Assembly (NCBI GenBank): GCA_005882135.1
Contig: VBDR01000036.1
Coordinates: 21,519-85,518 of the forward strand
Origin: Chloroflexota bacterium
GTDB lineage: Bacteria; Chloroflexota; Dormibacteria; Dormibacterales; Dormibacteraceae
Length of the DNA: 64,000 nt
Direction of reading: 5' to 3'
Shown here: in pieces, positions 3,755-40,112 of the stretch
Layout of the letters: each line of letters begins with the position of its first letter
How positions within the stretch are numbered: the stretch's first letter is position 1
Position numbers and translations under genes: made by a program
The notes under the pieces: model-generated
Databases searched by the model: none
What the model was told of the DNA's origin: nothing
The model's input: only the letters and a program-made list of their open reading frames with translations

Positions 3755-3777
3755 GGAGGTGCTATTTTCCCATGCTT

Positions 3778-3833
3778 CCTCCCCATTCATGGGGAGGCCG
3801 GCCGCCGGCGCAGCGCGCGGCCGGGTGGGGAGA
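3778..3833 (-). repeat. Dispersed palindromic element, variant copy R1
   Basis: CCTCCCCAT-TC-ATGGGGAGG (9-bp arms) plus a GC-rich flank ending GGGTGGGGAG, in the ppdK / ParB-like divergent region. Confidence 0.75.
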
Positions 3834-4482: not shown

Positions 4483-5250
4483 ATGACCCAACCCCGCGAG
4501 ATCCGCCACTACGGGTGGATACCGGACGTGCCCGACCAGCGCGACCATCTTTACGCTGCTCCCGCCCAGTACCTCAAGGCGCTGCCGGCCCTCACCGACC
4601 TACGCGCCAAGTGCCCGCCCGTCTACGACCAGGGCCAGCTCGGCAGCTGCACGGCCAACGCGATCGGCGGAGCGGTCGAGTTCGACCGCATCAAGCAGAA
4701 GCTCTCGGATTTCGTGCCGTCACGCCTTTTCATCTACTACAACGAGCGCGTCATCGAGGGCACGGTGTCGATCGACAGCGGCGCGATGATCCGCGACGGG
4801 ATCAAGTCGGTGGCGAGCGACGGTGTCTGTCCGGAACCCGAATGGCCTTACGACATCGCTAAGTTCGCGAAACGGCCGTCGGCGAAGTGCTACAAGGACG
4901 CCAGGCTGGACCGCGCCGTTTCGTACCAGAGCCTCATCCAGGACCTGAACCAGATGAAGGGGTGCCTTGCCTCGGGCTACCCGTTCATCTTCGGGTTCAC
5001 GGTCTATGAGAGCTTCGAAACCGAGGCGGTCCGGAAGACGGGCCATGCGCCCATGCCCGGTTGGGGTGAGCGGCCGGTCGGCGGCCACGCGGTGATGGCG
5101 GTTGGTTACAACGAGTCCAGGCAGTGGTTCCTGGCCCGCAACTCATGGGGCGCCGCCTGGGGCATCAAGGGTTACTTCACGCTCCCATACGCGTACTTCG
5201 TCCAGCCAGGCTTGGCGAGCGACTTCTGGACGGTCCGATTGGTGGGATAG
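4483..5250 (+). CDS. Papain-like (C1A family) cysteine peptidase
   Basis: YDQGQLGSCTANAIGGAVEF (catalytic Cys), GGHAVMAVGYN (His), ARNSWGAAWGIKGYF (Asn). No signal peptide evident. Confidence 0.88.
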   Translation: MTQPREIRHYGWIPDVPDQRDHLYAAPAQYLKALPALTDLRAKCPPVYDQGQLGSCTANAIGGAVEFDRIKQKLSDFVPSRLFIYYNERVIEGTVSIDSGAMIRDGIKSVASDGVCPEPEWPYDIAKFAKRPSAKCYKDARLDRAVSYQSLIQDLNQMKGCLASGYPFIFGFTVYESFETEAVRKTGHAPMPGWGERPVGGHAVMAVGYNESRQWFLARNSWGAAWGIKGYFTLPYAYFVQPGLASDFWTVRLVG

Positions 5251-5293
5251 CCCCTCCGGCGCCTTGAGCTCCACCTCCGCACGAGTGGGGAGG
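5251..5293 (+). repeat. Dispersed 43-bp element, copy R2
   Basis: CCCCTCCGGCGCCTTGAGCTCCACCTCCGCACGAGTGGGGAGG, immediately after the C1 peptidase stop. Confidence 0.75.
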
Positions 5294-5481
5294 AAGCCCA
5301 ACCGGAGCCCGGCGAGCAATCAGGGAGGGGGGCCCGCCGGGTCGGCTGGAGCATCGGCCTCGAGAAGTTGGAGATGGGGAGTGTAGAGAGGAGGAGGCCT
5401 TACTCCTCGTGGTATTCACATACGGCCCTACAGCGCGGCTTAACGAACGCGGCCTCCGAAACTTGCGTTTGAATTGACGCC

Positions 5482-14870: not shown

Positions 14871-14890
14871 CTTGTGCCGATTATGGCATG

Positions 14891-14933
14891 CCCCTCCGGC
14901 GCCTTCGGCGCCACCTCCCGATAAATGGGGAGG
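14891..14933 (+). repeat. Dispersed 43-bp element, copy R3
   Basis: CCCCTCCGGCGCCTTCGGCGCCACCTCCCGATAAATGGGGAGG, between divergent glmU and lon. Confidence 0.85.
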
Positions 14934-14967
14934 ACGCGTCCGGTTGGGGGCGTAGCATCACGTTCTT

Positions 14968-39033: not shown

Positions 39034-39043
39034 CGAGAGAGCT

Positions 39044-39086
39044 CCTCCCCGTTCATGGGGAGGCGGCGCCCAAGGCGCCGGAGGGG
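39044..39086 (-). repeat. Dispersed 43-bp element, copy R4
   Basis: Reverse strand CCCCTCCGGCGCCTTGGGCGCCGCCTCCCCATGAACGGGGAGG; fills the convergent lemA/PLD intergenic gap. Confidence 0.85.
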
Positions 39087-40112
39087 CTACGCGCGGGACC
39101 TCGCCCAGTCCGACTCAAAGCGGTTCGCGTAAGCCTGCACAGCCCCGGCATCGGCCGTTTCAATGTCGAGCTCGTGATTGACGCCCAAGCCGCTGAGCGT
39201 CCAGTTCGCCGAGCCAAGCACGAGCTCGGCGTCGAAGAGCCCGATCTTGGCGTGGAGGAGCACGCCTATGGGGACCGGATACCACCGCACCTCGACCCCG
39301 CCCGCCCGCAGCACGGCGAACGCGTGGAGGTTGTAGGACTGGTTGGGGTCGAGCACGACCCGGACGTCGGCGCCGCGGTGGTGCGCCACGACCAGCCCGG
39401 CGATGACCTCGGCGTCCGTGAGCGTGTAGACCTCCGCCAAGACTCGACGCACGGCGCGGCCAAGCCCGTGCGCGAGCATGCGGCGGATCTCGGCGCCGGG
39501 CGCGGTCTGCGCCACTGCCCCCGCCTGCGCCGGCACCGGCGACGGATGCCCCCCGGCGAGGGCCCAGTCCTGCTCGAAGATGCGGACCAGCCGATCAACA
39601 TCGACTGTGACCTCGGTCTCCAGGACGTAGTCGTGGTTGCGCTCGCTGTGCGCTCCCCAGTTCATGCCGCCGACCGCGGCCTCGCCATCGGCGACGAGGA
39701 GCTTGACGTGGTCGATCTGATGGCGTGCGTCGTCGACGGGGTACGCACGCTCAGGCACGCCCAACGAGTCGAGCTGCTGCACCGCTTTTCGGCTCGCCGT
39801 CACGGTTGGATCGGTGACGACGCGCACGTCAACACCGCGTGCCTCCGCGGTGCTGAGCCCCTCCACCACATCGGGCCGCCCAAGCTCATACATCTCGACC
39901 AGCAGCCGGCGCTCGGCCGAGCCGAGCAGCCGGCCGACCAGGGTGAAGATGCCGGCATCCTGCCAGAGCCGTACCTCGCCCGCGGCGAGCTTGCGGGCGG
40001 CATCACGAGGCCCCACCCCAGCTTCGCCGGACCTCCCCATGAATGGGGAGGAGGCCGGGCTCGAGCAGCCGCCGAGGGAGAGGAGGAAGAGCAGGCAGAC
40101 CACTCGAACCAC
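39087..40112 (-). CDS. Phospholipase D-like (HKD) lipoprotein
   Basis: VCLLFLLSLGGCSSP lipobox; two PLD-type repeats (DHVKLLVADGEAAVGGMNWG; LLHAKIGLFDAELVLGSANW). Confidence 0.88.
   Translation of the reverse strand: MVRVVCLLFLLSLGGCSSPASSPFMGRSGEAGVGPRDAARKLAAGEVRLWQDAGIFTLVGRLLGSAERRLLVEMYELGRPDVVEGLSTAEARGVDVRVVTDPTVTASRKAVQQLDSLGVPERAYPVDDARHQIDHVKLLVADGEAAVGGMNWGAHSERNHDYVLETEVTVDVDRLVRIFEQDWALAGGHPSPVPAQAGAVAQTAPGAEIRRMLAHGLGRAVRRVLAEVYTLTDAEVIAGLVVAHHRGADVRVVLDPNQSYNLHAFAVLRAGGVEVRWYPVPIGVLLHAKIGLFDAELVLGSANWTLSGLGVNHELDIETADAGAVQAYANRFESDWARSRA
40011..40051 (+). repeat. Dispersed element, copy R5, inside the PLD-like lipoprotein CDS
   Basis: CCCCACCCCAGCTTCGCCGGACCTCCCCATGAATGGGGAGG, the same 9-bp-arm palindrome as R1. 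Confidence 0.75.

Follow-up and report, generated by a model that had tools for sequence, protein, structure and literature searches.

The repeat found in five copies in the window studied here, a 64-kb stretch of DNA (bases 21519-85518 of contig C40) from a 2.71-Mb MAG that is 85% complete, is best explained as a non-autonomous, REP-like mobile element of two consecutive hairpins, which would be inserted at hairpin tips or breaks without a RAYT and subsequently be sorted by selection (we put the probability of this reading at roughly 0.7). Orthologous sites that are filled in some genomes and empty in others, with no target duplication, demonstrate its mobility. Movement of REPs is normally ascribed to RAYTs, and families without a RAYT (CGTC REPs) had no explanation. 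The present family is an orphan of this REP-like kind, genus-wide, rich in filled/empty pairs and apparently recent, given its consensus-identical copies. The original prediction of a dispersed 43-bp REP-like repeat is partly supported, and our analysis goes beyond it with the filled and empty sites, the nesting of copies, their placement at gene 3' ends and in frame, and the lack of Y1 or RAYT matches in the genus.

Anatomy and distribution of the element

The family consensus reads (C)AG-CCCCTCC-hairpin1-A-CCTCCCCATRAATGGGGAGG-A, and the unit derived from 224 distinct full copies is (C)AG-CCCCTCC-hairpin 1-A-CCTCCCCAT-RA-ATGGGGAGG-A(G/C). The length of exactly 43 bp first assigned to it is too short, as the conserved unit spans about 46-48 bp, from (C)AG to A(G/C). 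The 5' box is exactly CCCCTCC in 202/244 copies and the conserved flank upstream of the element is CAG. Hairpin 1 is hypervariable yet paired, with 187 perfect stems and 19 arm types; its arms are mostly 5-6 bp long, with versions such as GGCGC, GGCCC, GGCGCC, GGCGGC, GTCGGC and GCCGGC, and pairing reached 92.4% when copies were extracted by anchors. In a covariation test that takes no account of kinship among copies, 97.8% of the cells were paired, compared with 42-62% when the partners were slid, and both sides had changed in 51 cells compared with 17.4 in shuffles. The arms change together while the loop is kept: it is TNC in 92% of the copies, so that the other strand reads C-GNA-G. Triloops of the d(GNA) type with a C-G closing pair are known to be exceptionally stable in DNA single strands, and the active form would accordingly be DNA rather than RNA. 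Regarding the stem bases, hairpin 1 begins with G and hairpin 2 with CC, and AT pairs sit at the tip. Folding showed that the two hairpins can form on either strand and that the RNA folds are stable. The triplets TGA, TAA and TAG occupy most hairpin-2 loops and some genes terminate there; a selected stop codon is not claimed, since a purine-rich loop explains the pattern equally well. Genes in L217, L218, L230 and L250 have their stop codon inside this loop and two others (L113, L123) appear to begin within the element.

Table 1. Features of the element in the 64-kb window and in the Fpg/MutM orthologues.
Feature	Position	Strand	Basis and context
Full copy	14890..14934	+	cmsearch 68.1 bits; upstream of lon, in its divergent gap with a GlmU-like gene; orthologous site empty in G001
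5' box CCCCTCC	14891..14897	+	part of the lon-upstream copy 14890-14934
Hairpin 1 GGCGCC-TTC-GGCGCC	14898..14912	+	covarying stem, folded
Hairpin 2 CCTCCCgATaaATGGGGAGG	14914..14933	+	105 pattern sites in the genome vs 1 for the control
Full copy	39043..39087	-	cmsearch 64.8 bits; immediately after the TAG stop of a PLD-like gene, in the convergent gap with lemA
Variant copy	40010..40052	+	cmsearch 50.8 bits; inside the PLD-like gene (39087-40112, - strand)
Decayed copy	5250..5294	+	cmsearch 41.9 bits; adjoins the stop codon at the end of a C1-peptidase-like gene (Pfam)
Variant copy	3777..3831	-	cmsearch 37.1 bits; hairpin 2 intact, 5' half enlarged and divergent
Fpg/MutM orthologues L297-L311	L012 1501-1545 (own copy)		

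All five repeat sites proposed for the window were recovered where they had been placed, with cmsearch scores of 68.1, 64.8, 50.8, 41.9 and 37.1 bits (Table 1). The Rfam scan of the window yielded two tRNAs and nothing else. Concerning the whole genome, a blastn search with a single copy gave at least 57 matches, the hairpin-2 pattern occurred at 105 sites as opposed to a single one for the reversed-pattern control, and at least 123 matches at E≤0.01 were obtained with a covariance model derived from 47 copies, a copy number above chance as had been anticipated. With 66% GC and 106 occurrences of GGCGCC, the window could be suspected of producing such palindromes by chance; this explanation is already refuted by the control and by the 43-mer consensus, which has two matches at ≤3 mismatches vs 0.00 expected from shuffles, and its probability is negligible.

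Conservation also extends well beyond the five window sites, the element being present in 17/17 genomes of the genus (our own and all 16 others). Matches per genome range from 2 (G014) and 5 (G003) up to at least 57, some genomes of this soil Chloroflexota genus hold up to 100 or more copies, and several genus genomes contain exact consensus copies; all the genomes compared, our own included, are incomplete MAGs. In the other genera of the family the element is patchy and thins out and, among the 110 genomes searched, the only one outside the family with matches (two) was G028, of the same class. This genome, from another family of the class, carries at least one copy of consensus quality (L063/L099) on an 11.8-kb contig, which may reflect misbinning or contamination, or else transfer. 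Named records with the element are Chloroflexi soil MAGs and one record labelled Ca. Dormiibacterota. A sibling repeat family was also encountered, with hairpin 2 CTTCCCCAT..ATGGGGAAG and the 5' part CCCCATCC-CCCGGCTTCGCCGGGT; 12 exact and 4 one-mismatch sites were listed in our genome (e.g., G000 C16:26403-26422 and C9:28081-28100; L317, L318), and the main element is inserted twice in its loop (L024, L122).

Filled and empty sites, nesting and gene context

Comparison of orthologous intergenic regions, which the original prediction had put forward as a check, led to both filled and empty sites, at lon and at the PLD-like gene. Upstream of lon, the element lies between TATGGCAT and CGCGTCC in our genome, while G001 has TATGCCA-GT-CGCGACC, i.e., an empty site with 2 nt between the flanks and no target duplication; in G012 a decayed copy remains in this place. 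The site at 39043, behind the PLD-like gene, is filled in three genomes (our own, G006 and G016), whose junctions differ; in most of the other genus genomes it is empty. Additionally, an RbfA gene (named from its sequence) has an in-frame insert in L231, where L136 has 12 other nucleotides. A MITE of a DDE insertion sequence would share with this element its short, non-coding and dispersed nature and its presence/absence polymorphism. However, the element ends (CAGCCCC... / ...GGAGGA) are not inverted repeats, so the terminal inverted repeats of a MITE are missing, as is target-site duplication at the clean junctions, and no transposase is enriched beside the copies; a MITE is therefore very improbable.

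Copies were also found within one another. A second box upstream was seen in 29 copies, in 16/29 exactly 14 nt away, a distance that equals the 5' box plus the hairpin 1 left arm with the first bases of its loop; the hairpin-2 units downstream are headless in 25/29. Several copies are interrupted by another copy at their hairpin 1 tip (e.g., L023, L038, L151, L166), and the left and right remnants have complementary or nearly complementary arms, such as GGCCCT...AGGGCC (L151) and GGTTCT...AGAGCC (L166). These half-units read as a copy inserted into the hairpin 1 tip of an older copy, and such self-nesting points to how insertion sites are chosen. Part of them could stem from slippage or tandem duplication rather than nesting; L017 contains the 14-nt 5' unit more than once, and slippage probably contributes to the long tandem arrays. 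Arrays of this type were noticed at G000 C6:28799-28989, where the units run head-to-tail, at G013 C106:119989-120631 and in L053 and L061. The spacers of the latter two repeat the flanking sequence, and therefore flank and element were amplified together. In a further locus (L227 493-1701), the C-terminus of an RmuC-like gene holds an in-frame tandem array of the 21-aa unit AGDNVFSSPSHGEVARSAGGA.

We were able to map 91 copies relative to genes, which were called by codon usage and have uncertain starts: 62/91 are intergenic and 29/91 lie in called genes. The intergenic copies comprise 36 in unidirectional, 15 in convergent and 11 in divergent gaps, against a background of gap length of 60, 10, and 30%, respectively, i.e., an excess in convergent gaps and an under-representation in divergent ones. 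Around the intergenic copies, 55 gene 3' ends were counted at a distance of up to 60 nt; of the intragenic copies, 21/29 are no more than 60 nt from the 3' end, compared with one near the 5' end. The divergent promoter regions first named as one of the locations hold for the lon copy; genome-wide, copies are scarce there and hug the 3' ends of genes. A selected RNA element at gene ends, acting as a bidirectional terminator or a stabilizer of mRNA 3' ends, would account for this strong 3' bias, for the excess in convergent gaps and for the stable RNA folds with compensatory changes. It is nevertheless quite improbable, as the copies have no clear orientation bias relative to genes (24 sense, 31 antisense), no T-run was seen at their 3' flank, they occur in frame within genes and within each other, most orthologous sites are empty, and a 3' bias is shared by known REPs.

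Inside genes, inserts are kept in frame. The variant at 40011-40051 had been taken for an intergenic repeat; this copy (40010-40052) in fact encodes SSPFMGRSGEAGVGP, the linker behind the lipobox LSLGGC, in the frame of the PLD-like gene (translation; Pfam PLDc_2). The element also forms this linker in G010 and G005, and other genomes have different linkers. The copy at 3777-3831 overlaps the called start of a PPDK/PEP-utilizer-like gene (Pfam), with the uncertainty inherent in gene starts. In MutM/Fpg, GlgE and a TgpA-like (transglutaminase-like) protein, the Pfam domains flanking or enclosing the insert share its reading frame. Specifically, MutM carries an insert in 8/15 orthologues of the genus, 7 being empty, always at one beta-turn between GRRGKYILI-L and LVVHLGMTG. 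Plus-strand copies are found in our genome, G008 and G004, a minus-strand copy is common to G001, G002 and G009, G005 has a copy of the sibling family and G010 a composite. Judged by orientation and element type, these are at least three independent events, on a tree that is weakly supported. The turn appears as an insertion hotspot, used in both orientations and by two element families. Repeated in-frame insertions of this kind are a natural experiment in which a protein gains loops from selfish DNA. The copies that survive thus either adjoin the 3' end of a gene or are read in frame as part of a tolerant loop or tail of a protein.

Search for a mobilizer and proposed mechanism

The original prediction had expected a RAYT mobilizer elsewhere in the genome. 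The searches lend this no support: Y1_Tnp (PF01797) had no match in our genome even at E≤10, nor in the 25 family genomes searched, several of which are 95-96% complete, and the RAYT model NF047646 found nothing in the 17 genus genomes. The sole convincing match of NF047646 in the family is a RAYT-like protein (L293, G109 C100:12033-12413) whose score of 65.7 bits falls short of the cut-off, and that genome lacks the element. After clustering of 513 neighboring proteins, none of the largest clusters was a recurrent transposase-like family. An autonomous parent element was also considered and rejected, as the genes that separate copies spaced by 0.4-3.3 kb resemble ordinary cellular ones when read from the sequence, the recognizable ones being housekeeping genes. 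A RAYT/IS200 mobilizer was likewise set aside, with no match to the two models in the genus. In sum, the case for absence is strong, short of proof given the incomplete MAGs, and a mobilizer gene may have been lost from every assembly.

An ordinary REP family whose spreading agent, a RAYT/Y1 transposase, has since been lost or is missing from the assemblies would fit the anatomy and location of the copies; loss of RAYTs from strains is known (PMC3733652) and G109 shows that a RAYT-like protein exists in the family. Against it stand the negative results of both models in all 17 genus genomes, the GTAG tag, which lies immediately upstream of only 3/224 copies, and the genes between close copies, which are not transposase-like. 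Furthermore, consensus-identical copies in several Y1-negative genomes suggest recent spread. We consider this explanation unlikely, albeit the least improbable of the rivals.

Since no mobilizing protein was identified, we infer the movement step of the double-hairpin element from its copies. The copying form would be a folded single strand, because the GNA loop suits DNA hairpins, and new copies would enter exposed hairpin tips or breaks. Insertion may be carried out by a host nuclease and ligase or by template switching rather than by a RAYT, and we favor hairpin-guided insertion by host repair or some nuclease. Selection would then purge insertions in promoters or out of frame.

Comparison with known repeat systems

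The element is REP-like in anatomy and habits and lies outside the GTAG and CGTC superfamilies. It comes nearest in kind to REPs, to Rickettsia palindromic elements and to the double-hairpin elements of fungal mitochondria. The label REP-like is upheld by a short, abundant, dispersed and palindromic unit that sits near gene 3' ends and shows evidence of movement; it is a high-copy palindrome, mostly extragenic, and biased to gene 3' ends and to convergent and unidirectional gaps. Known REPs likewise favor 3' ends, provide some stop codons and can be inserted inside genes, those for DNA repair included (PMC3733652). The GTAG tag marks REPs linked to RAYTs (PMC3733652); our element shares with these its small size, abundance, dispersal, palindromic form and position near gene 3' ends, but it is devoid of GTAG, has two different hairpins per unit, and no RAYT or Y1 was found in its genus. 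REPs of the CGTC superfamily have no dedicated transposase (PMC3733652). Those of alphaproteobacteria, Neisseria (dRS3) and Rickettsia (RPE-4/6) are comparable as REP-like families with no associated transposase, whereas the present element has no CGTC/TGTC/CCTC tag, no AT pairs at the stem base, a double hairpin and a host in another phylum.

In BIMEs and REPINs, the REPs alternate in orientation or are inverted (for BIMEs, see PMC2817692). Palindrome clusters and tandem arrays are common to both systems; the arrays of our element, however, are head-to-tail and built from two unlike hairpins, not from inverted copies of one REP. Rickettsia palindromic elements are inserted in frame in protein genes, and RPE-1 is longer (PMC3733652). 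In-frame insertion in Fpg, GlgE, the TgpA-like protein and RbfA is a likeness drawn from their description; our element is shorter than RPE-1 and mostly extragenic. Finally, the double-hairpin elements of fungal (Allomyces) mitochondria consist of consecutive hairpins, differ in insertion between species and have no flanking duplication (PMC2800124). By description, they share with our element two consecutive hairpins and insertion without flanking duplication, theirs being mitochondrial. A bolder proposal, which we offer tentatively and regard as rather doubtful, is that a bacterial element of about 45 bp spreads without any HUH/DDE transposase: it might fold as a single strand, with new copies pasted by host repair both into chance breaks and into older copies at their exposed hairpin tips. 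Russian-doll arrays and concerted arm changes would result, and the element would be a prokaryotic counterpart of the mitochondrial double-hairpin elements.
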